From IMG/VR virus record IMGVR_UViG_3300028388_001610, positions 1-35,184 of that record: a stretch of DNA of 35,184 bases. One strand, 5' to 3'. The notes beneath the pieces are model-generated. The model did no database searches. It was given only the letters and a program-made list of their open reading frames with translations, and was not told the DNA's origin. The position numbers were made by a program, and so were the translations under genes. Positions 2,040-30,179 of the stretch are shown here, one piece after another; the first letter of the stretch is position 1; each line of letters starts with the position of its first letter. The DNA is from a virus.

Positions 2040-3389
2040 GTGAGAAGAAGCGCCATAATTTCGGCTGATCCGCCCAACGTAGCTAGCCCGCTATCGATAA
2101 GTACTGACGGAAGGTACTTCGTGGACCCAAGTAACCAACCTGTCCTTGTAAAAGGTGATACTGCATGGAGTTTGTTTAATCAGATTTCCCTTGCAGACGC
2201 ACGGCTGTACATTGACGATACTGCCACTAGAGGCTTCAACACGCTTCTGGTGTCGATAATTGAAGATTTCTATTCCGACAACACACCGGCGGAAGTAAAC
2301 GTCAACGGCGACAATCCGTTTAACCCAATAAACGATTTCGCAAGTCCGAATGAGGCATATTGGCAACACGTCGATGCTGTAGTCTTATACGCCAAAAATT
2401 TAGGTATAACGTTTTTCTGTGTTCCGTCCTACATCGGGTTTTCCAACGATGGGTGGGCCGCTGAACTGGATGCGGCAACGCAAGCTGATCTTATCTCTTA
2501 CGGTGAATTCCTCGGTGCCAGATACGCATCGTATGGCAACTTTATTTGGCTCGGTGGAGGCGACCGAGCGCTAGATAACCCAGTTGAAGACAGGGCAAAG
2601 CAGGTCGCGTGGGTCGAAGATGTCATGTCTGGAATTATCAGCCAGTGGCCGACAAACGCACCGTGGGGTATTCACACAAGTCTGGATGAAGATCACCGCG
2701 CCAAGTACGGTGCAGACTTTTCGTGGATGAATATCGCAGGGGTCTACACGTACAACGATACGGCAGGAGCAGCCTATACGCTCGCCAATGCTTTCTACAA
2801 CGACACCCCGGCATGGCCGGTGTATTTCCAGGAAGGGAATTACGAGAGCAGTTCAGGGGTAACGGAGAAATTCACACGGACTCAGACCTGGCAATCAGTA
2901 CTTGGTGGTGCGACTGCCGGGTATATATTCGGCAACCATTCAATATGGGCCTTTGGCGCTCAACCAGCGAAATTTTATTCTACTTACACATTGTCTGAGT
3001 TTCAGGATTGGAAAGGTAAGCTGGACACGGTAGGTAGACAGGGCGCAGCGACGGCTGGCGAAATTCTTGAGTCTGTAAGTTGGTACCTTCTTGTACCCGA
3101 TGATGCTGCAACAGTCATAACATCCGCTCTGGGAACAGGCGATAACCGAATTGTCTGTGCAATCTGTTCTGACGACTCTGCCGCGCTTGCTTACGTCCCA
3201 ACAGCGACGAACCCAACCGTAGACATGTCGGAGTTTACCGGAACAGTGGTAGTAGATTGGATTGACCCGATAACCGGCGGTGTCACTTCTGACAACTCGT
3301 ATGCTGCATCCGGCAGTCAGACCATAACACATCCAGGCAATAATTCAGACGGCGAAGCTGACTGGGTTTTACGCATGATAAGTACTTAG
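2040..3389 (+). CDS. Apiosidase-like (DUF4038/GH140-type) glycoside hydrolase
   Basis: A 449-residue protein starting at GTG, 3 bases after the previous stop, with no ATG alternative near the domain start. Residues about 20-80 carry the DUF4038 signature (RYFVDPSNQPVLVKGDTAWS, then RGFNTLLVSIIEDF). FIWLGGGD ending at Asp175 and VYFQEGNYE with Glu265 sit where TIM-barrel strands 4 and 7 would place the acid/base and nucleophile. The last roughly 90 residues look like the small beta domain often annotated as putative collagen-binding in this family. GH140 members cleave apiose from rhamnogalacturonan II, but other DUF4038 proteins have unknown substrates. It has no signal peptide and lies among virion genes, so a virion-borne capsule or glycan depolymerase is the likely role. 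Confidence 0.8.
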   Translation: MRRSAIISADPPNVASPLSISTDGRYFVDPSNQPVLVKGDTAWSLFNQISLADARLYIDDTATRGFNTLLVSIIEDFYSDNTPAEVNVNGDNPFNPINDFASPNEAYWQHVDAVVLYAKNLGITFFCVPSYIGFSNDGWAAELDAATQADLISYGEFLGARYASYGNFIWLGGGDRALDNPVEDRAKQVAWVEDVMSGIISQWPTNAPWGIHTSLDEDHRAKYGADFSWMNIAGVYTYNDTAGAAYTLANAFYNDTPAWPVYFQEGNYESSSGVTEKFTRTQTWQSVLGGATAGYIFGNHSIWAFGAQPAKFYSTYTLSEFQDWKGKLDTVGRQGAATAGEILESVSWYLLVPDDAATVITSALGTGDNRIVCAICSDDSAALAYVPTATNPTVDMSEFTGTVVVDWIDPITGGVTSDNSYAASGSQTITHPGNNSDGEADWVLRMIST

Positions 3390-5462: not shown

Positions 5463-5722
5463 TGACATGTCCGGGCAAAGCAAAACACTGTTGCTGGGTC
5501 AGAGGCAAGGAATGTCGACACATTATTCGCGACTACACAGACGAAAACGGCTATTTTCGTGAAGTTGCTTGCGGATTGCGTGCCGAACTAGGCGATTGGG
5601 ATAAAGTACTAGAAGATCCACGATATCCCGCCAACTCGTGGGCGGCTGGAATAAATTGCAGAGACTGGCCGGAAAGCCCAAAGCAGCATAGAGGCTGCAA
5701 CATCTGCGGAGCGTGTGAGTAG
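5462..5722 (+). CDS. Small cysteine-rich protein
   Basis: An 86-residue protein with nine cysteines, including a CC pair near residue 10 and a C-terminal cluster RGCNICGACE. The spacing suggests metal binding or a disulfide-knitted fold. I chose the ATG overlapping the upstream stop (TGATGA); a GTG 3 bases earlier is also possible. Its stop overlaps the GTG of the next gene (TAGTG), so it appears co-translated with the giant repeat protein. The family is not recognised. It could be a zinc-binding assembly factor or a small virion protein, but nothing visible decides this. Confidence 0.55.
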   Translation: MTCPGKAKHCCWVRGKECRHIIRDYTDENGYFREVACGLRAELGDWDKVLEDPRYPANSWAAGINCRDWPESPKQHRGCNICGACE

Positions 5723-8700
5723 TGGCTACCTGGAATATCACGGTACCAGCGGCATCCGGTGTAGGAGCGTTACTGTCAGACGTAGTCGGTAGCGCAATAA
5801 CACCACCGGGTGACTTTGATGGCGCGACCATTAATAGCGTCGCTGTCAGTGGTACGCCTACGGTAGTAGACAGCGAGAACTCTAACGATAGCATCTGGGT
5901 TCGCTGGTTTGTCCGCACCACGGGCGGTACGGCTGTATACGGCGGTGATGCTAGTGATGCAGCGTCTATATGCTATCACAATGCAAATTTTGATCAGACA
6001 ACACATACTATCGTCGACGGCACTGCACGCAGTCCAGCGCCAACAACAGCAGTTGCTGCCGACTGGGATGAGATTGCGTATAGTTATACCTATACGGTAT
6101 CGGGTAAAGATGACGACAGCACAGTGTCCTGGGCGTCTTTTACCATCGTCGTCGACTACACTCCTTCAGGTAGTACGACTGACGATACCGCTGACCCTAC
6201 GACAGCAGGGGCGACTGGCCAAACCGGCAGTGTAACTGCGATAACCTCAGCCATTGTCTCACCTGCAGGCGTGGCCGTGTCTGGGCTGGCCGGAGCGCTA
6301 ACTAAGTCGTTCATCACTACTGGTCTGTTGGGCGCGGCCGCACTGAGTGGAGCCGGTACGGCCGACGCTGCGATAGGTGGCGGTATAACTGACGCCACTG
6401 CTGAACCAACCGGTGTAGAGGCGACGGCGCTCGTCAAAGATACGGCGTCTACAGTTAACGTCATATACGGCCCAAGTGGCTCGGGTTCTACAGCCGCAGC
6501 CGGTACGGCGGTAGCAGACGCGGCAACAGGTACGATTAGCGACACGGCTTCTCCTAGTGGTGTTGTTTCTACTGGACAGACCGGCAATGTAGCTGTAATC
6601 ACAACTACTACTGTCATAATAGTCCCAGACGGCGCGTCAGCGTCCAGCCAAATCGGCGACGTCGATGTAGCCGCCAATACTAACATAGATGTTACGGCCG
6701 ATGGTGTCTCCGCTACAGGGTCGACAGGTACGGCGATAGCTAGCGTAATCTCTGGTACTACAGATGCTACCGTCGATCCCGTAGGCGTATCATCTACTGG
6801 CGAGGTACAGACGCTAAGCCAGACTACCGTAACTACAGGCGTTCTTGGCAGCTCTTCCACTAGCCAAGCCGGCACGGCTGGTGTGAGTCTAGTAGCCGGA
6901 GCAGAGACTGATCCTTCAGGTGTAAGTGCAGACGCCCAAGCCGGCAACGTAGAGACGGTTACACAACAACTGGCTCTAGCGAATCCGTCCGGTACAGAAG
7001 CGTCTGGCCAAATCGGCGACATCGATGTAGCCGCCAATACTAACATAGATGTTACGGCCGATGGTGTCTCCGCTACTAGCCAGGCCGGTACGGCGATAGC
7101 CAGCGCAATCTCTGGTACTACAGATGTTACCGTCGATCCCGTAGGTGTATCGTCTACCGGCGAGGTACAGACGCTAAGTCAGACTACCGTAACTACAGGC
7201 GTTCTTGGCAGTTCTTCCACTAGTCAAGCTGGCGCGATAAGTGTCGGTCTAACCGCCGGAGCCCAAGCTGATCCTGTCGGAGCGAGCGCGTCTAGTCAAG
7301 CGGGCGTTCCCGCCGTAGTCACTGTGTCGAACGCCTTGGCTACACCAGATGGTGTAGAAGCGCTAGCGCTAGTTAAGGACACGGCGTCTACAGTCAATAT
7401 AGTCTATGGACCGAGTGGCGCGGAGATAGCTAGTGCAATCGGTGTCACCCAAGCGCTGGCGGTAGATCCAGGTAACGCTATAGCTTTACCTGATGGCGTC
7501 GACGCAACTGGTTTAACTAGGCTTTTCGGCATATCATCTACAGACATAGAGCCAGACAGCGTAGATAGCTCTGGATCAGCGGGTATATTGACTGCTGAAT
7601 CTGCAGGACCTGTGTCTAATGCGCAAGCTGATCCGACCGGCGTTCAAGCGATTGCTCAATCTGGCGATCCAAGTATCGCTGCGCAGTTCGACGCGACGAT
7701 AACACTAGATGGCGTGATTACTAGCGGCCAGGCTCAGACACTCAATCGAGCCACCGTAGTTACTGGCATTACTGGTTCGGAAGCGTCCACAGTAGCAGGT
7801 ATAGCCGAAGGCGTACTCGACGGCAATCGCGTTGTCGATCCTGTTGGTGCAGTTGCGAGTGCAGAAGTCGGATCTGTCTCCATAGCGACTACGGGCAGTG
7901 TTACTGCTACGTTTGCCGGCGTAGAGGCTAGCAGCCAGGCCGAGGTATTCGATCAGTCCTCTACATCCTTCGACATTGATGGCGTCGAAACTACGTCAGA
8001 ACCCGGCATTGTCGCTATACAGATTATCGCTGGCCAGATCAACGCTACAGCTTTGCCAGACGGCGCAGCTTCGATCAGCCAAGTAGGCGACGTCGGCATA
8101 GAGGCGTCCGGCAGTGTAGTAGCTCTACCGATAGGTGTTGACGCCTCCGGATTGGCGGAGTCCGTAGACGCCAATACTATAACCAATACGTCAGCACAAC
8201 CAAGCGGTATCGAGGCGGTAGGCCAGGTCGGAGACGCTCAGGCTAGTTCGATTACGAATACGTCGGTCGATCCTATTGGCGCAGTAGCGACAACCGAAGC
8301 CAGCGGTGCTGACCTTGTCGTCAGTGCAGTCTCTCGACCGGTCGGTGCTGAGCTTACAACTGATGTCGGTTCGGTAGATGTCGACTTTATCGGTAGCGTT
8401 ACAGCTCTACCGGACGGCGCTCTCGCTAACGCTCTACTCGGCGACGCCGTAGGCCGTACGTCAGGTACGGAAGTAGTTGTAGCACCCGGAACCCAGACTA
8501 GCGGCGCAGCTGGCTCTGTATCTGTCATCGCCCAACGAGTAGTTACGGCCGATCCTACAGGCGTACAGTCGACAAGTGGGGTCGGCGAAGTAGATACAAC
8601 TTACGGCGCTACTGCATCACTAATCGGCGTAGAGATCTCTAGCGAAGCGGGTACGATATTGACGTCGACGACTTCGTTCGTCATCACACGTCCTATAGGC

Positions 8701-9159
8701 GTATCGTCAATAGTCGCCACTGGTGAAGTAAGCACGTTCATTCTCTCTGGTTCCAACTACTTCACTGAGGCTAGAGACTTAGAGGCGCGTTTCGACGCGG
8801 CCTGGAATCACACAGATATTCAATGGTACGGGGTGCCCTTCACTAGCAAGACTCGATCAGAGTGGGTTAGATTTGTTAACCGATCTGGTCGTGCGGAACA
8901 ACTCTCTACCGGCAATGCTAATAACGCGTATCGGTATAGTGGTTCTGTCGTCATAGAGATTTATGTGCGACCGAATACAGGTTCTATGAGAGCGATGGAG
9001 CTCGCTGGTCTAGCAGAAGATGTTTGGAGAAGTGCGATCTTCTCAGACCTTCGAATGAGTGTACCGAGAATCGAGGAAGATGGAATCGTCGATGGTTGGT
9101 ACAAAGTAAATGTAATCACGTCTTATCAAAGGGACGCCTTTCAGTCTAGGAGTATTTAG
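5722..9159 (+). CDS. Giant repeat protein with C-terminal tail-terminator domain
   Basis: A 1145-residue protein starting at GTG. Residues 1 to about 150 look like a beta-sandwich (MATWNITVPAASG to TIVVDYTP). From about 155 to 1005 there are degenerate repeats of roughly 20-25 residues built on P-x-G-V-x-(A/S)-x(4)-G, a low-complexity beta module seen in phage fibre and decoration proteins. Residues about 1010-1145 (ARDLEARFDAAWN, IQWYGVPF, EIYVRPNTGSM) resemble the DUF4128/gpU-like tail-terminator family, normally a stand-alone protein of about 130-140 residues. The tail tube gene begins 3 bases downstream, exactly where a terminator gene is expected. I see no obvious internal start codon with a ribosome site before the terminator domain. 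The terminator may be released by proteolysis, or the repeats may decorate the tail top. The domain call is from pattern memory, not a search. Confidence 0.7.
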   Translation: MATWNITVPAASGVGALLSDVVGSAITPPGDFDGATINSVAVSGTPTVVDSENSNDSIWVRWFVRTTGGTAVYGGDASDAASICYHNANFDQTTHTIVDGTARSPAPTTAVAADWDEIAYSYTYTVSGKDDDSTVSWASFTIVVDYTPSGSTTDDTADPTTAGATGQTGSVTAITSAIVSPAGVAVSGLAGALTKSFITTGLLGAAALSGAGTADAAIGGGITDATAEPTGVEATALVKDTASTVNVIYGPSGSGSTAAAGTAVADAATGTISDTASPSGVVSTGQTGNVAVITTTTVIIVPDGASASSQIGDVDVAANTNIDVTADGVSATGSTGTAIASVISGTTDATVDPVGVSSTGEVQTLSQTTVTTGVLGSSSTSQAGTAGVSLVAGAETDPSGVSADAQAGNVETVTQQLALANPSGTEASGQIGDIDVAANTNIDVTADGVSATSQAGTAIASAISGTTDVTVDPVGVSSTGEVQTLSQTTVTTGVLGSSSTSQAGAISVGLTAGAQADPVGASASSQAGVPAVVTVSNALATPDGVEALALVKDTASTVNIVYGPSGAEIASAIGVTQALAVDPGNAIALPDGVDATGLTRLFGISSTDIEPDSVDSSGSAGILTAESAGPVSNAQADPTGVQAIAQSGDPSIAAQFDATITLDGVITSGQAQTLNRATVVTGITGSEASTVAGIAEGVLDGNRVVDPVGAVASAEVGSVSIATTGSVTATFAGVEASSQAEVFDQSSTSFDIDGVETTSEPGIVAIQIIAGQINATALPDGAASISQVGDVGIEASGSVVALPIGVDASGLAESVDANTITNTSAQPSGIEAVGQVGDAQASSITNTSVDPIGAVATTEASGADLVVSAVSRPVGAELTTDVGSVDVDFIGSVTALPDGALANALLGDAVGRTSGTEVVVAPGTQTSGAAGSVSVIAQRVVTADPTGVQSTSGVGEVDTTYGATASLIGVEISSEAGTILTSTTSFVITRPIGVSSIVATGEVSTFILSGSNYFTEARDLEARFDAAWNHTDIQWYGVPFTSKTRSEWVRFVNRSGRAEQLSTGNANNAYRYSGSVVIEIYVRPNTGSMRAMELAGLAEDVWRSAIFSDLRMSVPRIEEDGIVDGWYKVNVITSYQRDAFQSRSI
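6642..7260 (+). repeat. 360-bp in-frame duplication inside the repeat protein gene
   Basis: The stretch from about 6642 to 6900 recurs at exactly +360 bp (about 7002 to 7260) with few differences, for example around the shared segments CAAATCGGCGAC (6649 and 7009) and GATGTAGCCGCCAATACTAA. The offset is a multiple of three (120 codons), so the frame is kept. High nucleotide identity against otherwise diverged protein repeats points to a recent tandem expansion of several modules at once. Confidence 0.85.
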
Positions 9160-10377: not shown

Positions 10378-10475
10378 ACGATAGCGCTACTTATTTCGTA
10401 TAAAACAGTCGAGAACGACATAAAATGATACGAAAAGACAGCAAGCTCACGGCAGAGACTGTAATTAGTACTCTG

Positions 10476-10505
10476 CTATTCTCTGCTAGTATAGTACTAT
10501 ACTAG
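10476..10505 (+). promoter_or_regulatory. Conserved promoter/operator motif, copy 1
   Basis: This 30-base block contains a perfect 20-bp palindrome, CTAGTATAGTACTATACTAG (10486-10505), preceded by CTATTCTCTG. The same block, with small changes, occurs at 24366-24395 (- strand) and 29291-29320 (+ strand). Here it sits about 25 bases upstream of the tail assembly chaperone start, in the only sizeable gap of the tail operon. The gap 10335-10530 otherwise holds only the hairpin above. The position suggests a phage-specific promoter or an operator. No clear host sigma-70 -35 box is visible. Confidence 0.55.
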
Positions 10506-10530
10506 TAACTTTAGACGGAGTAATATAGAG

Positions 10531-10962
10531 ATGTTTAATATCGATCAGACAACAGTTGATAAGGAAGAGTCTGGAGTATGGACTCGTTTTCGCGGTAGTG
10601 AGTTTCTTATCGCATCAAGTGGAAGTAATCGATTCCAAAAAATATTCGCAAAGCTTCAGATGCCGTATAGAAAAGAGATACTCAAGAATAGACTAGATCC
10701 TGAGACACAGATCGAGATTATGTCTCGAGCACTGTCTCGAGCCGTAGTCCTCGACTGGCGCGACGTCACTAACAACGACGGTGAGAATGTGCCTTACGAT
10801 GTCGAGATTTGCTACAACGTTATTCGCAATAACGCAGAATTTAGAGACTTTGTTACAGACTTTGCTACCGAAATCAGTAACTTTATCTCTGAAGAGCGAG
10901 ATGAGCTGGGAAAGTTTGCAGAGAAATCATCAACTGGCAAGTCCAATACGGAAGCCGCCTGA
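10531..10962 (+). CDS. Tail assembly chaperone, short form (gpG-like)
   Basis: A 143-residue acidic protein in the position of lambda gpG, between the tail tube and tape measure genes. The ribosome site is GGAG about 12 bases upstream, within ACGGAGTAATATAGAG. It is mostly helical by appearance (ETQIEIMSRALSRAVV, FVTDFATEISNFISEE). The zero-frame stop lies at 10960-10962. Before that, codons CTG GGA AAG at 10906-10914 contain the GGGAAAG slippery heptamer used by lambda G/GT, so this is the non-shifted product. Tail chaperones of this class bind the tape measure protein and tube subunits during assembly and are absent from the virion. Confidence 0.8.
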   Translation: MFNIDQTTVDKEESGVWTRFRGSEFLIASSGSNRFQKIFAKLQMPYRKEILKNRLDPETQIEIMSRALSRAVVLDWRDVTNNDGENVPYDVEICYNVIRNNAEFRDFVTDFATEISNFISEERDELGKFAEKSSTGKSNTEAA

Positions 10963-24342: not shown

Positions 24343-24350
24343 CTATTATT

Positions 24351-24404
24351 CTCCGTTCAGATCGTTCAGTATAGTTATACACTAGCAGAGAATAGTAGAT
24401 ATAC
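24351..24404 (-). promoter_or_regulatory. Conserved promoter/operator motif, copy 3
   Basis: Read on the - strand, a block of about 54 bases runs from GTATATCTA through CTATTCTCTG and ACTATACT to GAACGATCTGAACGGAG. The first 45 bases upstream of the ligase ribosome site match the block at 29291-29335 with only two differences, and the 30-base core matches 10476-10505 more loosely. The core here is AGTGTA-TAAC-TATACT, an imperfect palindrome. Its end includes the GGAG used by the ligase gene. Confidence 0.6.
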
Positions 24405-24643
24405 TACTGTCTCTCCTGTTTCCAACCGCGAGCCATTAGGCACTGTTTTGTTATATTGGCGCGCTCGAAACCGATCGCTATAACTGAACCGTAACCGTAA
24501 TCCGGCACAGCCTTAGTGGCTTCGTACTGACAGGCGGTCTTATCTTTTTCAAACTCGCTGGCCGTAGCACCCGGCTTATTCCAGGTAGCTGTAGCACAGC
24601 CGTGGATCAGAGTAAGTAGTGCTAGCGCTGCGAGTTTTTTCAT
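24404..24643 (-). CDS. Small lipoprotein
   Basis: 79 residues. It has a type II signal peptide (MKKLAALALLTLIHGC, lipid-modified Cys16) and then an extracytoplasmic part with two further cysteines (KTACQYEATKA, TKQCLMARGW) that could form a disulfide. The layout resembles small bacterial lipoproteins of unknown function. A good GGAG ribosome site precedes the ATG. Phage lipoproteins of this size can block receptors (superinfection exclusion, as with T5 Llp), but that role is inference here. Confidence 0.75.
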   Translation of the reverse strand: MKKLAALALLTLIHGCATATWNKPGATASEFEKDKTACQYEATKAVPDYGYGSVIAIGFERANITKQCLMARGWKQERQ

Positions 24644-24659
24644 AGTATTCTCCTAAATC

Positions 24660-25220
24660 TTATACGTTCAGCGTTATACGATCCATGATCCTGGTTAGTC
24701 GGCGTGCCTGCATGATTGCGTCATGATCAGCTCGATGAGGAATGAGATCTGAATCAAATTCTTTCGGCAGAAAGAAGCCGAATTCAGACTTAAATGTTCG
24801 ATAGCATCTCTCTTGCCAGAAATTCCACGGAGCGTCCATATCACACATTTTGTACGCGTGTTTGAGTATGATTAGATCGAATGATGGACTATTGGCCCAT
24901 ATCTTTGGGTAATCTTCTTGTCTTGTTACTCCATCATACCAGGCCGTAAATGCTATTAGAACGCTCTCTATTGACGGGTATATCGATATTTCTAAGGATT
25001 CCTTGGCCTCGTCTGACTGCTCGTCCCACCAGCCGAGCGTGCCCTCGTCGTACGTGTAACTGAAATCGTTCTCAGCATGCATATCATCATAGAACTCTTT
25101 TCGCACACCACCAAGAAATACATTGCGCTGATCGAGAGTACAGGCGCCTATCTGCAGTATGGCAGAAGTCGGACTAACTCCTAAGGTCTCAAGATCTACC
25201 ATTACGTCATATTCGCTCAT
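24660..25220 (-). CDS. DEDDh 3'-5' exonuclease (DexA/RNase T-like)
   Basis: A 186-residue protein with the exonuclease triad. Asp9 and Glu11 lie in VDLETLG, Asp115 in ANSPSFDLIIL, and His162 with Asp167 in HRADHDA. The layout, including the long insert with WWDEQS, resembles phage DexA-type enzymes and Rv2179c-like exonucleases. The substrate could be RNA or single-stranded DNA. The ATG overlaps the stop of the dCMP deaminase gene (ATGA), so it is translated from the nucleotide-modification operon. It may recycle nucleotides or trim RNA. Confidence 0.85.
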   Translation of the reverse strand: MSEYDVMVDLETLGVSPTSAILQIGACTLDQRNVFLGGVRKEFYDDMHAENDFSYTYDEGTLGWWDEQSDEAKESLEISIYPSIESVLIAFTAWYDGVTRQEDYPKIWANSPSFDLIILKHAYKMCDMDAPWNFWQERCYRTFKSEFGFFLPKEFDSDLIPHRADHDAIMQARRLTRIMDRITLNV

Positions 25221-25807
25221 ACTCCTATCTCCTTAAGCAAGCCGCACTCCGTACATTCTCTAAATATCGTACTGTCACTCTTAGTCCGCTTGCTGGAAGA
25301 CACCCAGTGCCGATGCTCGCAGACCTCGTCTATCTCATATATCGTCATTTGTTCTGGGAAATGCTCCCAAATTCTGCCTTCTCTAGAAGACTCCCACATA
25401 TCTCTAAGCTGTTCATGACCTGGGTAGCGATCACTAAATACTATGCGCTGACAGCTTGTATTCATTAACAACTTTATGCAATGTACACACGGACTAGTCG
25501 TACAGTACGCTGTATTTATTGCTTCGACGTCGGAGCACTGAAGAAGTGCATTGGCTTCCGCGTGGATGGCCTCGCACTTATCCAGATCCTGTCCAGAACT
25601 TGACCTAGAACCTTCGCAAGGACGTTCAAGACAATTTGTAACGCCGCGAGCACGGCCATTATACCCAGTAGCAATAACATGATTGAGATTATTGGTAAGG
25701 ACGCAACCAACCTTACGACGAAGACAAGTACCACGTAAACTGACGAGTTGCGCCATCTTGATGAAGTACTCATCAACTTCCATTCTCCCTGCTGTATCGG
25801 TTGTCAT
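25217..25807 (-). CDS. dCMP deaminase
   Basis: A 196-residue protein with the zinc cytidine/deoxycytidylate deaminase motifs: H82-A-E84 (catalytic Glu84) and SPCVHC (Cys107, Cys110). It converts dCMP to dUMP for thymidylate supply. A C-terminal extension carries a second likely zinc site (Cys163, a His near 165-167, Cys185 and Cys188 in ECTEC), which is unusual and not part of the basic fold. The ATG at 25807 has GGAG 7 bases upstream and lies 35 bases inside the hydroxymethylase gene. With a dCMP hydroxymethylase next door, this enzyme would compete for the same dCMP pool, as in T4. Confidence 0.9.
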   Translation of the reverse strand: MTTDTAGRMEVDEYFIKMAQLVSLRGTCLRRKVGCVLTNNLNHVIATGYNGRARGVTNCLERPCEGSRSSSGQDLDKCEAIHAEANALLQCSDVEAINTAYCTTSPCVHCIKLLMNTSCQRIVFSDRYPGHEQLRDMWESSREGRIWEHFPEQMTIYEIDEVCEHRHWVSSSKRTKSDSTIFRECTECGLLKEIGV

Positions 25808-26606
25808 TCAACCACTCCGTAAACTGATGATTCTTTTTATCGCAGTCTTCTGATTTAAAGGACATAAGATTAACTACCTCACGTCTATCAAATATTTCTG
25901 GGCAGTAGATCTCGTAGTACCCGTCACGACCTTCGTCGATAATCTGGTCCAGCATATCAAAGTGTCTCTCATATACGTGGAAGCTGTCGACTTTATGGGT
26001 ATACGTACCAAGCGCTAGTCCCTCGTACGTACTGACGAGCATCTTGTAGACCATCTCGTGTAGAACAGAGAAACAGAAAACGTCGTTAGTGAAACCCCAC
26101 ATAGCGTCCTGGCTACGCATGTTCACGCTCATATAGAGACTATTATCTCGTATACGAAACGAAATACTCTCTGTACAGACGATGTCCTTATTGCCTTCAT
26201 AGAGATGGTTTACGCTGAGCATCGGTATGACGGCCTGTCGCGTATCTCTGTCTCTTATGAGTTGGTCTACGACCCAATCTATACCCGCTTCACCGCCAGG
26301 CATGTACCTCAGTCTGAACCAGTATTGGCCGTAATTAGAGTGCCACCCTCCGCCATCAGGAACCTCTAGATCTTCCCACATAGACGCTGATTTTGTGATC
26401 ATTCGATTATATCGATCGCCTGTAAGATACCACAGCATCTCGTACTTGGCGTAATCAAGGTTGAATTTGCGAGCTCTAAAGGACGTAAATCTACAGCGCG
26501 GCGGGAGCGTCACCATATAGTCCTGTATCTCCAGGACCTTTAGGCCTCTCGGTGATACTAGCTGGCCCTTAGTGCGAAGGTCTTTGTAGACGCTTAGAAA
26601 ACGCAT
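25773..26606 (-). CDS. Thymidylate-synthase-family dNMP hydroxymethylase (probably dCMP)
   Basis: 277 residues with the thymidylate synthase layout: NYGQYW (about 91-96), phosphate-binding RDRDTRQAV (118-126), nucleophile Cys144 in DIVCTES, RSQD (164-167), and DSFHVYERH near 207-215. At the position of E. coli ThyA Asn177, which selects uracil, the ungapped alignment gives Asp175 (GFTND). In T4 dCMP hydroxymethylase an Asp at this place selects cytosine. I therefore infer conversion of dCMP to 5-hydroxymethyl-dCMP with methylenetetrahydrofolate; dUMP hydroxymethylation is the alternative. The gene overlaps the kinase gene upstream and the deaminase gene downstream. Family certain, substrate inferred. 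Confidence 0.85.
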   Translation of the reverse strand: MRFLSVYKDLRTKGQLVSPRGLKVLEIQDYMVTLPPRCRFTSFRARKFNLDYAKYEMLWYLTGDRYNRMITKSASMWEDLEVPDGGGWHSNYGQYWFRLRYMPGGEAGIDWVVDQLIRDRDTRQAVIPMLSVNHLYEGNKDIVCTESISFRIRDNSLYMSVNMRSQDAMWGFTNDVFCFSVLHEMVYKMLVSTYEGLALGTYTHKVDSFHVYERHFDMLDQIIDEGRDGYYEIYCPEIFDRREVVNLMSFKSEDCDKKNHQFTEWLNDNRYSRENGS

Positions 26607-27099
26607 GATCTATTCTCCCTACGAGTTGACGGAATGACATGACCTTAAAGTCATACGATATTACACCTGGCAAGTCATGGGCCATACGAACATAGTTATT
26701 TCGTACTATTTTGTTCTCTGATCTCATACGAGCCTCGTCTTCCTCAGATTCGTAGACTGCACGAGCGTGTCCATCGAGATTTTGTGCCGTACATATCACT
26801 ATAATTACTGGGCTAGAGAGTATTTGATTCACGTAAGAAGCATGCATCTTAAGGTCGGCATCTTCCTGTATCTCCGGTAGATTGCACACGTTACTGATGC
26901 CTGTAAACCTGTCCCATACACACGGATACTTTAGTAACCAGTGAGTCTGGTACAGCATACAAATTTCAGCGTGGGCCATGTCTACTGGTGGCGGACCAGC
27001 GCTAAAAGCATGAATACCGTAGTGCACGCTTAGCTTGCCGACTAGAGTACTCTTACCAGATGCGTCGGCACCCTCGACTATTATCGATGGCTTACGCAC
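26569..27099 (-). CDS. P-loop deoxynucleoside monophosphate kinase
   Basis: 176 residues starting at GTG. The Walker A motif GADASGKST is at residues 10-18, as in thymidylate-kinase-like enzymes. WDRFTG (about 62-67) resembles the DR(Y/F) motif of that family, and a lid-like charged segment (EDEARMRSENKIVR) follows. Between the hydroxymethylase and the pyrophosphohydrolase, it most likely phosphorylates hydroxymethyl-dNMP, the job of T4 gp1, which has a different fold. A plain dTMP kinase role is possible. Overlaps both neighbours. Confidence 0.8.
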   Translation of the reverse strand: MRKPSIIVEGADASGKSTLVGKLSVHYGIHAFSAGPPPVDMAHAEICMLYQTHWLLKYPCVWDRFTGISNVCNLPEIQEDADLKMHASYVNQILSSPVIIVICTAQNLDGHARAVYESEEDEARMRSENKIVRNNYVRMAHDLPGVISYDFKVMSFRQLVGRIDHAFSKRLQRPSH

Positions 27100-27526
27100 T
27101 CTTCTTGGCCTTCTCTAGTATTCGAGCAAACTTCAGCTCTGGGTCCACCCAAGAACTCGGTTTAACTGCGTCGGCAGCATCATAGCCTTCACGACCGACC
27201 TTAGTACCAGACTTCTTAAGAAGATTGGCTTGATGTACAGCGTCGAAGAGTTCGGCATGAGTCTTTTCACCGATTCCGTTCTTGTAGAAGATACCCAGAA
27301 GAAAGTACTCAAGATCAATCAATCCGTCAAGAATGCCTATGAAATCGCCTCTTTCGTACGACTGTTCTATCTCGTCAATTTCTTCTCTCAATTGATGCAT
27401 TGACAGCTTAAACTCATCAACTTTCTGTTGGCCGGGTTCTCGCTTGCTTATGCCCAGTATGCTTCGGTTGAAGTTGATAACATCCAGCATCTGCTTGTTT
27501 ACTGGGATATACTCTATGTCGCTCAT
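27092..27526 (-). CDS. MazG-like/PRA-PH nucleotide pyrophosphohydrolase
   Basis: A 144-residue all-alpha protein with the metal-binding pattern of the superfamily: EEIDE (48-52) and DGLID (67-71). A conserved C-terminal arm follows (DAVHQANLLKKSGTKVGREG). Enzymes of this type hydrolyse dNTPs to dNMP and pyrophosphate. In this operon the economical role is removing dCTP, which supplies dCMP and keeps unmodified cytosine out of phage DNA (the T4 gp56 role). The ATG overlaps the carbamoyltransferase stop (ATGA). Substrate not provable from sequence. Confidence 0.8.
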   Translation of the reverse strand: MSDIEYIPVNKQMLDVINFNRSILGISKREPGQQKVDEFKLSMHQLREEIDEIEQSYERGDFIGILDGLIDLEYFLLGIFYKNGIGEKTHAELFDAVHQANLLKKSGTKVGREGYDAADAVKPSSWVDPELKFARILEKAKKSA

Positions 27527-29184
27527 GTTATTACCACCGTATACACTCGTTTATCCTCATCGTTACTGAGTTGATATTGATGACATCGCAGCACGTCTTG
27601 CATGCTGTACACTATGGGCATTCCGTGCTCGTTAAATGATGTGTTTATGAGCATTTCGTGCTGAGTTTCGACCAGTACTGGGTGTAACCAGTGATCAAAA
27701 TCTACTATCTGAGGGCGACCCGTATATCCCGTAGGATTATCTGGATCATATATAGGAGTATTGTGGGCCGCGCCTAGAAAATCCGGGTCCATCATTCTAT
27801 AGTCTCGCGTACAGATCATGTACTCGAGCGACTTGTGGACCTTCGTAATGTTCTCGAACAGTCTAGTAGACTCTCTTCTCGTGACTATCGGAGCCATTGG
27901 CATGATAGTCGATCGTCCGTTAAGTGAGTTAATGTACTGCACGTTCTCTACAGTTGGTAAAGCGAGTGTAGTAGTATTGCCTAGTGCGCGAGCACCGAAC
28001 TCCATCGAATCTCTTACTACATTAACGATCTTGTTCTTGGCGATAAGATCGTTGATGAAGGGCACATACTCATTTGGGTCGTTTACGAAACAGTGTAGTC
28101 GCTCGCACTCTAACGGATACGTCTCTCGCTTACCCCACATGAGATGTTCCGGCCATACGAAATCTTTCTCCATAGCATGATAGAGTCCGATAGGAGCACC
28201 CTGATCTCCAGCCAGAGGCATTACGCAGAACTGGCCTGGCACGCACTTCGTCAGTTCGTTATTGAGCTTGACGTTCATAAAGAGACCGCCTACGACTATC
28301 AAGTTCTCTGGGTCATGCTCTTTTACGATACTCTTCATTACGTACTCTAGCCTGCTCTGCACGTAAAAAGCGACTATGGCTCGCTTGGCCTCTTCCGAGT
28401 ACTGTCTTTCTACGCCAAGCTTCTTGAGAAATTTGTCGAAGTGGAGAGCATACTGGTATCGAAGAGCGGGAAGAGCATCAAGTGCTAGGAGTGGGTCGTA
28501 TCGATCGACAGTGTCTCTGTCACGAATTATTTCGAGGTGAGTCTCGGCCGCTTTTTCAGCGAGCTCTGTAACTATCTCAATTTCTTCCTCTATGAGATAG
28601 TTGTCAACGTGTGCCTCGTAGCCAAGCAGTTTATACTCATCCTGGTTCTCCCTCATACCCAGGTAAGCAGTAGCGTACTGGTACATTAGACCCAAACTTG
28701 ACTCGTATCCGAAGGACCTTCGGAACAATTGCGGCTCATGATAGTTATCGAGCCAGTATAGAGACATCGTCTCGCCGAAGTTACCGAAACCATCCGCTAC
28801 GAGTACTAGAGTATTACTGGCTGGAATTTCGTCTCCGGCAAACGCGCAGGCCGACCAAGCGTGAGCATCGTGATGGGTAAAGTCCATCGATACCGAGTGG
28901 ACCTTCGCGTTTGGTAGGTTAAAATGGAAGTACAGCGGGTCGAAGTACTTGTCGTGAATTTCCGGTAGCTCACCGTCTACGAACCAATGTGATATGTAGA
29001 CGTCAGCTATATTCTCGAACTCTTTCGGGTACAGTCGCTTAATCTGCTCTATCGCATTACGAGGAAATGAGCTATCACTCTTTTTCTTCGTGAGTCGCTC
29101 TTCCTCATAGCCCGCAATTACGTGACCGTTACGAAGCAGTACGGCACTCGAATTATGTCCTAGTGATAGGAGTAATCGTGACAT
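27523..29184 (-). CDS. Carbamoyltransferase (NodU/CmcH/TobZ family)
   Basis: A 553-residue full-length member. N-terminal SLGHNSSAVLL and EEERLTKKKSDSSFP, metal site HHDAH (104-108), LVLVADGFGNFGETMSLYW, IVVGGLFMNVKLNNEL, PLAGDQGAPIG, FGARALGNTTTLA and the C-terminal LINTSFNEHGMPIV are all family signatures. The family makes carbamoyl-adenylate from carbamoyl phosphate and ATP and transfers the carbamoyl group to a hydroxyl. Leading an operon with a hydroxymethylase, kinase and pyrophosphohydrolase, it probably carbamoylates hydroxymethylcytosine in DNA. RBS AAGGACG precedes the ATG, and a 76-nt structured segment lies just upstream. Confidence 0.9.
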   Translation of the reverse strand: MSRLLLSLGHNSSAVLLRNGHVIAGYEEERLTKKKSDSSFPRNAIEQIKRLYPKEFENIADVYISHWFVDGELPEIHDKYFDPLYFHFNLPNAKVHSVSMDFTHHDAHAWSACAFAGDEIPASNTLVLVADGFGNFGETMSLYWLDNYHEPQLFRRSFGYESSLGLMYQYATAYLGMRENQDEYKLLGYEAHVDNYLIEEEIEIVTELAEKAAETHLEIIRDRDTVDRYDPLLALDALPALRYQYALHFDKFLKKLGVERQYSEEAKRAIVAFYVQSRLEYVMKSIVKEHDPENLIVVGGLFMNVKLNNELTKCVPGQFCVMPLAGDQGAPIGLYHAMEKDFVWPEHLMWGKRETYPLECERLHCFVNDPNEYVPFINDLIAKNKIVNVVRDSMEFGARALGNTTTLALPTVENVQYINSLNGRSTIMPMAPIVTRRESTRLFENITKVHKSLEYMICTRDYRMMDPDFLGAAHNTPIYDPDNPTGYTGRPQIVDFDHWLHPVLVETQHEMLINTSFNEHGMPIVYSMQDVLRCHQYQLSNDEDKRVYTVVIT

Positions 29185-29202
29185 TACACGTCCTTAAATG
29201 GT

Positions 29203-29278
29203 GAGGACGCTGGACAGAAAAGAAGTACTTCGCTGAGTGGGCACTCTTACCTCTCGTCTGGTTGGATCCAGCGTCCTC
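29203..29278 (-). ncRNA. Candidate structured leader of the carbamoyltransferase gene
   Basis: GAGGACGCTGGA (29203-29214) and TCCAGCGTCCTC (29267-29278) form a perfect 12-bp outer stem around 52 bases. Read on the - strand, the inside holds GAGTGCCCACTC (a small hairpin) and the palindrome GAAGTACTTC. The element ends 18 bases before the carbamoyltransferase ATG and begins just after the conserved promoter-like block. It could be a regulatory leader, an attenuator or a small RNA on either strand. I do not recognise a known riboswitch. Confidence 0.45.
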
Positions 29279-29281
29279 GTT

Positions 29282-29335
29282 GTATTTCTACTATTCTCCG
29301 CTAGTATATAACTATACTGAACGATCTGAACGGAG
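29282..29335 (+). promoter_or_regulatory. Conserved promoter/operator motif, copy 2 (on + strand)
   Basis: A block of about 54 bases nearly identical to the sequence in front of the ligase gene, but in the opposite orientation: it points right, into the 3' end of the - strand SSB-like gene. The core AGTATA-TAAC-TATACT (29304-29319) is nearly symmetric, so it may work leftward for the carbamoyltransferase operon. It even retains the CTGAACGGAG end that serves as the ribosome site at the ligase gene. The intergenic gap 29185-29336 holds only this block and the structured element. Confidence 0.55.
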
Positions 29336-29336
29336 A

Positions 29337-30179
29337 TTACCAGGAACTCAACAATGCGTCCATGTCCTCATCCTGCGACTCAGACTGCGCACTCGCTGCC
29401 GGCGGTGCCGGCTGCTCAGCTTCAGTCGCAGCCGGAGCAGCGGGTGCCGACTGATGAGTGACCTGAGCCGCAGAACTGTTCTGATGCTCAAGAACTGGTC
29501 TGTCAGACTCCCACTCCTTCTCATTGGCTCGCTTGAGAGCAATCGTACCCTGCTGCTCGTTAAGCACACCAGCGGCATTGAAGTGCAGCATGGCCCAATC
29601 AGAGTCTTCATCGATACTGATAGTCGTAATTACTGCCTCGAGCGGAATACCTTGCTTGGCCAGGTCTTTGCCGTAATTAGACAGATTCTTGAGTGATGCC
29701 ACAGTAATATTGAGCAGATAGGCCGTGCCGTCCTCGATATTCTTGGCATTGACGACGATCAGTCGCTTGGAGTCACGACAAGCCTTAGCCTTACCGCCGG
29801 ACATCGATTTGGCTGAACCCCACTTATTCTGCGGACATGTAGCACAGTCAGTAGACTGTGGCGAAGTAATCCACGAATCAGGGCGAACACCATCATATGA
29901 TGAACAGTCTGGCGGAGAGCTGTCACCTGGTTCGTAAGCACCTGCGTAGAACGTCTTGGCCATACCATTTTCAGGTTGTACGCCGACGATAACTACGTGA
30001 ATCGGGTCGGCCGTCTTCATCTTAACCTCACCATTTTCGATGAAGTTGAATCGACGTGACTTGAGACTGATTCGAGGTACCGAGTCTACCGTTGATACCA
30101 CCTTGTCTGCATCTGCCTTGGCTTCACCGGCGTCAATCTTTGCCTTCAGCCAATCTGGTAGAGCGAGTTCTTTACTCAT
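29337..30179 (-). CDS. Single-stranded DNA-binding protein candidate
   Basis: 280 residues. Four cysteines (Cys92, Cys112, Cys115, Cys134) in PDCSSYDG, DCATCPQNKWGS and ACRDSKRL suggest one zinc site inside a beta-rich core. A long Ala/Pro/Glu/Ser linker (about 230-265) leads to an acidic, aromatic tail ending DEDMDALLSSW, the hallmark of SSB tails that recruit partner proteins. T4 gp32 also combines a zinc module with an acidic tail. It is close to helicase and nuclease genes. Fold not confirmed; an SSB role is the best reading. Confidence 0.65.
   Translation of the reverse strand: MSKELALPDWLKAKIDAGEAKADADKVVSTVDSVPRISLKSRRFNFIENGEVKMKTADPIHVVIVGVQPENGMAKTFYAGAYEPGDSSPPDCSSYDGVRPDSWITSPQSTDCATCPQNKWGSAKSMSGGKAKACRDSKRLIVVNAKNIEDGTAYLLNITVASLKNLSNYGKDLAKQGIPLEAVITTISIDEDSDWAMLHFNAAGVLNEQQGTIALKRANEKEWESDRPVLEHQNSSAAQVTHQSAPAAPAATEAEQPAPPAASAQSESQDEDMDALLSSW

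Follow-up and report, generated by a model that had tools for sequence, protein, structure and literature searches.

The window analysed here is the whole of IMG/VR virus record IMGVR_UViG_3300028388_001610 (35,184 bases), which is probably a fragment of a phage genome, as it is classed as linear. Its plus-strand genes encode siphophage tail proteins, including a tape measure and a J-like tip protein, and beyond about 23.2 kb the genes lie on the minus strand and serve replication and nucleotide functions (a DNA ligase, exonucleases, an SNF2-type helicase). Among the latter lies a cassette of five minus-strand genes (29184-25217), each overlapping its neighbour by 4 to 38 bases. Their products are a class III O-carbamoyltransferase (CTase), a MazG-like nucleoside triphosphate (NTP) pyrophosphohydrolase, a P-loop nucleoside monophosphate (NMP) kinase, a thymidylate synthase (TS) homologue predicted to act as deoxycytidylate (dCMP) hydroxymethylase, and a dCMP deaminase (Table 1). 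Very probably, the cassette makes the phage replace the cytosine of its DNA with 5-carbamoyloxymethylcytosine (5cmdC).

The five open reading frames lie exactly where an initial annotation, made from the DNA letters, had placed adjacent and overlapping minus-strand genes (25217-29184). The families it had assigned hold as well: Pfam and PHROG name four of the five, and the kinase is recognized through its AlphaFold model. The four Pfam matches exceed the curated cut-offs, and the PHROG assignments concur with them. A contig syntenic with the minus-strand block (L099, 12.8 kb; 66-76% DNA identity) retains all five proteins at 64-79% amino acid identity, next to an exonuclease at 62%. The ratio of non-synonymous to synonymous changes (pN/pS) between the window and L099 is 0.17-0.34 across the five genes. 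All of them are under purifying selection in this comparison, and the cassette is not a product of chance, because the syntenic contig keeps every gene at such low ratios. L099 was binned in a metagenome-assembled genome of Acidimicrobiia; as the contig itself resembles phage DNA, however, the bin constitutes weak evidence of the host. Megablast and blastn searches of phage records at the DNA level returned no matches.

Table 1. Genes and leader of the cassette region, with coordinates in the window and supporting matches
Feature	Coordinates	Strand	Length	Support or remarks
Class III O-carbamoyltransferase (Kae1-like + YrdC-like)	27523-29184	-	553 aa	Carbam_trans_N/C 6.9e-20, 1.4e-22; PHROG
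MazG/DR2231-like all-alpha NTP pyrophosphohydrolase	27092-27526	-	144 aa	PRA-PH 7.1e-07
P-loop NMP kinase, thymidylate-kinase fold	26569-27099	-	176 aa	P-loop GADASGKST; GTG start
Predicted dCMP hydroxymethylase, TS family	25773-26606	-	277 aa	Thymidylat_synt 4e-19
dCMP deaminase, zinc-dependent	25217-25807	-	196 aa	dCMP_cyt_deam_1 6.5e-19; PHROG
Rv2179c/DnaQ-like 3'-5' exonuclease	24660..25220	-		Pfam 1.2e-36
Conserved gene upstream of CTase, phrog_27714	29337..30179	-		adjoins CTase in Xp15 and Acinetobacter phages too
Operon leader	29185..29339	-		dyad-like element 29279-29339, then long hairpin ~29203-29278

Predicted substrates of the cassette enzymes

The choice between cytosine and uracil is reflected by the active site of the TS homologue. 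Its catalytic C144, T145, and D175 correspond to positions 146, 147, and 177 of E. coli ThyA, where T4 gp42 has Cys, Thr, and Asp, ThyA itself Cys, His, and Asn, and SPO1 gp29 Cys, Asn, and Asn. Thr147 and Asp177 (ThyA numbering) are also present in the TS homologues of Xanthomonas phage Xp15 and Stenotrophomonas phage AXL3, and the C-terminal PVAI of ThyA is missing from the window protein and from gp42. In the metagenomic study of Yang et al. 2021 (PMC8670742), TS genes mostly encode Asn at position 177 when they come from unmodified contigs, and in most cases Asp when they come from cytosine-modified ones, position 147 being the other top discriminating position. Since the window enzyme shares Asp177 and Thr147 with gp42, whereas the SPO1 dUMP hydroxymethylase has Asn, these residues indicate dCMP as the substrate, i.e., cytosine and not uracil. 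The product would be hydroxymethylated rather than methylated, because the proven homologue of the linked CTase requires a hydroxymethyl acceptor. The missing PVAI terminus, as in gp42, would indirectly fit the addition of water, and not of hydride, to the methylene intermediate. A gene of an Agathobaculum phage (L107 1387-2049), intended as a second deoxyuridine control, was dropped: it carries Thr147 and Asp177, so that its annotation as a deoxyuridylate hydroxymethyltransferase is doubtful, and its residues make specificity for dCMP more likely than for dUMP.

The CTase aligns over its full length (553 aa) with the phage 5-hydroxymethylcytosine (5hmC) carbamoyltransferase purified by Yang et al. 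(39% identity, E 3e-116; sequence as printed in PMC8670742). That enzyme is active on 5hmdCTP and on single-stranded DNA, but inactive on 5hmdUTP and 5mdCTP, i.e., it needs a hydroxymethyl acceptor. The window protein is accordingly annotated as a predicted 5hmC or 5hm-dCTP carbamoyltransferase. The iron ligands of GdmN (H133, H137, D156, and D333; PMC9633730) map to H104, H108, D131, and D327 of the window CTase, and its general base, the catalytic H27 (same source), to H10. In the AlphaFold model (pLDDT 91.5), the predicted fold is Kae1-like plus YrdC-like; the best match in the PDB is TobZ (E 6e-29, TM 0.73), and NovN and GdmN are also matched over both domains.

A scan of viral contigs with one sequence as query turned up no relatives, while alignment-based scans yielded 67 and 78 loci, many of them common to both. 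In a FastTree phylogeny of about 94 sequences, the window CTase and the proven 5hmC enzyme fall within one clade of 80 members (support 0.97). All 80 carry Asn at the position of window N422, and 78 carry Thr at the position of T404; the seven WGR-type (cyanophage-like) CTases have Lys and Arg, respectively. These positions correspond to TobZ Lys443 and Arg423, the TobZ numbering being set by motif spacing, without direct alignment. The Asn422/Thr404 signature is an addition of the present analysis. Residue 389 (TobZ Trp408) is Val in the window and Trp in none of the clade, and most members have Cys at residue 402 (TobZ Gly421), Gly being present in 11 of the 80, the window among them. At the three published differential positions (TobZ W408/G421/R423, again numbered by motif spacing), the window therefore has V/G/T against I/C/T in the proven enzyme, an agreement of two out of three. 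The initial annotation had proposed carbamoylated hydroxymethyl-pyrimidine DNA and pointed to a precedent for 5hmC in environmental phages. Such a precedent does exist (Yang et al. 2021, PMC8670742), and the proposal gains support from the membership of the window CTase in the clade of the proven enzyme, most of whose specificity residues it keeps.

Five divergent CTases (L078, L087, L088, L090, and L091) also lie beside Asp177 TS genes; in these, position 422 is Leu, and Phe or Tyr replaces His10, the general base, which may point to another acceptor or to other chemistry at the modified cytosine.

Genomic linkage was counted for 63 members of the CTase clade; near-identical sequences had been removed, as had the window, L099, and the purified enzyme. 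A TS-family gene is located within 3.5 kb of the CTase in 58 of the 63, with Asp177 in all 58, and the exact order CTase-MazG-kinase-TS-deaminase occurs in 26. None of the seven WGR-type CTases has an Asp177 TS nearby; one has a canonical TS (His147, Asn177) at a distance of 3.8 kb. The sample is biased, as the loci were found by patterns from the same CTase family, and the WGR outgroup is small (n=7). The five-gene order is repeated in isolates, namely Xp15 and the Acinetobacter phages Effie, MD-2021a, and HHU4, while Bacteroides fragilis phages encode a CTase and two dCMP hydroxymethylases. Seven loci (L006, L007, L032, L048, L049, L052, and L057) contain cassettes of the Bacteroides-phage type, in which a few kb separate a pair of Asp177 TS-family genes. 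According to Yang et al. (PMC8670742), CTase, TS, PRA-PH, and dCMP-deaminase domains co-occur on modified contigs, and the co-occurrence of CTase with TS is confined to contigs that survived selection for modified cytosine.

The MazG-like protein gives profile matches to the 3nl9 and DR2231 structures, its gene occupies the same place in the cassettes of Xp15, the Acinetobacter phages, and AXL3, and the enzyme is predicted to hydrolyze dCTP (and/or dUTP), thereby removing the unmodified precursor. The kinase has no Pfam match above cut-off, but its P-loop matches phage thymidylate kinase (1.2e-4), and a comparison of its AlphaFold model (pLDDT 91.3, alignment of 28 sequences) with the PDB finds thymidylate kinases and SPbeta YorR. 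From these structural matches, a deoxynucleoside monophosphate kinase is a reasonable assignment, with 5hm-dCMP as the predicted substrate. Its position is also conserved in the cassettes of relatives. The deaminase carries a C-terminal extension (25217-25316, minus strand) with a zinc-ribbon-like motif (C-x2-H-x-W...C-x2-C-G) that is kept in L099.

Proposed pathway and competing explanations

In the predicted order of steps, the MazG-like enzyme would convert dCTP to dCMP and so deplete the unmodified precursor of cytosine. The TS-family enzyme would add a hydroxymethyl group to dCMP, as its residues suggest, and the kinase would phosphorylate the resulting 5hm-dCMP to 5hm-dCDP, toward 5hm-dCTP. 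The CTase would form carbamoyl-adenylate from carbamoyl phosphate and ATP at its iron-containing Kae1-like site and would transfer the carbamoyl group, as does its proven homologue, onto the 5-hydroxymethyl oxygen of 5hm-dCTP and/or of 5hmdC in single-stranded DNA at the fork. Surplus dCMP may be deaminated to dUMP, feeding thymidylate synthesis, as expected of the deaminase family. The CTase may even act before polymerization, a route raised by Yang et al. (PMC8670742) as their enzyme used 5hmdCTP; the CTase, expressed together with the MazG and kinase genes, would then supply 5-carbamoyloxymethyl-dCTP, from which the phage polymerase would directly build a genome with all cytosine replaced by 5cmdC, unlike the post-replication decoration in T4. 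This timing is conceivable but rather doubtful; in many phages the CTase is tightly coupled to genes of the nucleotide pool, which agrees with it without constituting proof.

We infer 5cmdC in the DNA of this phage from gene content, residues, predicted fold, the conserved cassette, and purifying selection, and the carbamoylation itself by analogy with the homologue of 39% identity for which the reaction is proven. Several points weigh against this conclusion. Asp177 marks a dCMP substrate, yet alone cannot tell hydroxymethylation from methylation, and of the three differential positions published for the CTase, that of TobZ Gly421 holds the Gly of the unmodified type. The substrates of the MazG-like enzyme and the kinase are predicted ones, and neither protein aligns with T4 gp56 or gp1. 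No DNA chemistry was found in the literature for this phage or any cassette-bearing isolate, and as the record is a linear 35-kb fragment, the phage may encode additional tailoring enzymes elsewhere.

Class III CTases mostly modify small molecules, and TobZ, NovN, and GdmN are the best structural matches of the window protein, so the CTase might instead act on a sugar or small metabolite (a host glycan or an antibiotic-like compound, as for NodU and TobZ), the TS gene separately producing 5hmC or 5-methylcytosine. Cyanophage-type CTases without an adjoining Asp177 TS do exist; however, linkage to such a gene is near-universal in the clade that the window CTase shares with the proven 5hmC enzyme and absent for the WGR type, and the sharing of most specificity residues within that clade leaves this explanation very unlikely. 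Alternatively, the modified base might derive from uracil (5hmdU or its carbamate), with the deaminase as the source of dUMP; this would agree with the presence of a dCMP deaminase in the cassette and with the existence of phage dUMP hydroxymethylases such as SPO1 gp29. T4, too, encodes a dCMP deaminase, and the TS homologue of the window resembles T4 gp42 at both discriminating positions, where gp29 has Asn. The proven CTase, moreover, shows no activity on 5hmdUTP. A uracil derivative is thus very improbable, and of the hydroxymethylated pyrimidine proposed initially, either dC or dU, the cytosine part is retained and the uracil part is abandoned on the grounds of Asp177 and this inactivity.

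There is also a slim chance of an end product other than 5cmdC, with modification being partial or the carbamate being an intermediate that genes beyond the fragment replace or extend. The record is incomplete, and AXL3 pairs the same nucleotide genes with a methyltransferase instead of a CTase; decorations therefore swap between cassettes. Nevertheless, no additional DNA-tailoring gene was recognized beside the cassette in the window, and the Xp15 and Acinetobacter cassettes likewise have the CTase alone.

As for 5cmdC, the preferred product, Yang et al. had described the chemistry, the enzyme family, and the gene context in 2021, and the window is a further member of this kind. Added here are the cytosine specificity from residue tests with a deoxyuridine control, the CTase signature, the measured linkage, and the named phage isolates. 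Literature searches for 5cmdC found Yang et al. alone and no report of a cultured phage whose DNA contains the base; so far, the modification has been demonstrated with metagenomic contigs and one purified enzyme. By analogy, 5cmdC should block many bacterial defence enzymes, and the predicted protection from restriction and from Cas nucleases is an expectation, indirectly supported by AXL3, whose cassette is related and whose DNA resists restriction. As isolates carry the cassette (Effie, with Acinetobacter calcoaceticus ATCC 23055 as host; HHU4; Xp15), the occurrence and timing of the modification in vivo become directly testable, as does protection from restriction and CRISPR, and the B. 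fragilis phages offer a variant cassette. The residue signatures may help to annotate genes now labelled hypothetical or 'Nol-like'.

Operon leader and neighbouring genes

A dyad-like element in the leader (ATTCTCCG...CGGAGAATAG) is present in 61-nt copies at 29279-29339 (minus strand) and 24347-24407 (plus strand), which are identical at 56 of 61 positions and oppositely oriented. A third copy (10464-10524, minus strand, 38/61 identical) is located ahead of the gene at 10531, and divergent copies occupy syntenic sites in L099. The inverted copies flank the cassette, but the idea that they delimit a mobile or invertible unit was rejected in view of the syntenic L099 copies and the third copy before 10531; the element is probably a phage-specific promoter or operator. 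The leader hairpin (29185-29300 region, minus strand) has a z-score of -3.9, and its L099 counterpart (5880-6000) one of -3.7; the stem sequence differs between the two, i.e., the structure is preserved while the sequence has changed. Hairpins are also present in the same gap of several relatives. The leader hairpin has no Rfam match, and Rfam and tRNA searches detected no Rfam family and no tRNA. Candidate roles are an attenuator, a terminator of the upstream gene, or a regulatory RNA.

The start of the exonuclease gene overlaps the stop of the deaminase gene by 4 nt, and the exonuclease probably shares a transcription unit with the cassette, which does not imply a role in modification. A Cys motif and an acidic C-terminus suggest that the phrog_27714 product is a putative single-stranded DNA-binding protein. 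Elsewhere in the window, an Apiosidase-like glycoside hydrolase with a putative collagen-binding domain (2040-3389, plus strand), encoded beside a beta-helix protein, is a possible depolymerase. A 1145-aa open reading frame (5722-9159, plus strand) matches a tail terminator family over its final ~130 residues and gives no match over its first ~1000.

Comparison with known systems

The closest precedent is the cassette of Yang et al. 2021 (MetaGPA, PMC8670742), which contains a homologous CTase of the same clade, neighbouring TS, PRA-PH, and dCMP deaminase genes, and Asp177 in the TS. It belongs to another phage, has Cys where the window CTase has Gly (TobZ G421 position), and was described without a kinase; for the window, the base is predicted. 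Xp15 (gp39-gp35), Effie, HHU4, and MD-2021a share with the window the five genes, their order, the flanking upstream gene, helicase, ligase, and exonuclease, although their CTases are only about 39-43% identical and public annotations are mostly hypothetical or 'Nol-like'.

The 5hmC pathway of T4 has a homologous dCMP hydroxymethylase with the same key residues and a common logic: removal of dCTP, synthesis of hydroxymethyl-dCMP, phosphorylation, and decoration. T4, however, attaches glucose where the window is predicted to attach carbamoyl, and the window genes form one cassette. The initial view that the cassette mirrors T4 thus holds for function; orthology was detected neither for the MazG-like protein, for which hhalign showed no relation between its family and gp56 (probability 1.3%), nor for the kinase, whose family shares with gp1 the P-loop only (11%).

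AXL3 has the dCMP deaminase, Asp177 TS, kinase, and MazG genes in the same order, but a class I methyltransferase gene, together with hypothetical genes, where the CTase would be (L010 3761-6421). Its DNA was cut by two of 37 enzymes, both with A/T-only sites, and its authors interpreted the gene cluster as thymidylate synthesis (PMC7504290). The restriction pattern agrees with cytosine modification through the nucleotide genes of the cassette, though in a different phage and with a different decorating gene; some other cytosine decoration is likely in AXL3. Finally, the antibiotic O-carbamoyltransferases TobZ, GdmN, and NovN share the fold, iron ligands, and general base of the window CTase, which differs from them by Asn for Lys443 (by motif spacing), Thr for Arg423, and an aliphatic residue for Trp408. 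The predicted acceptor of the window CTase is a nucleotide or DNA.

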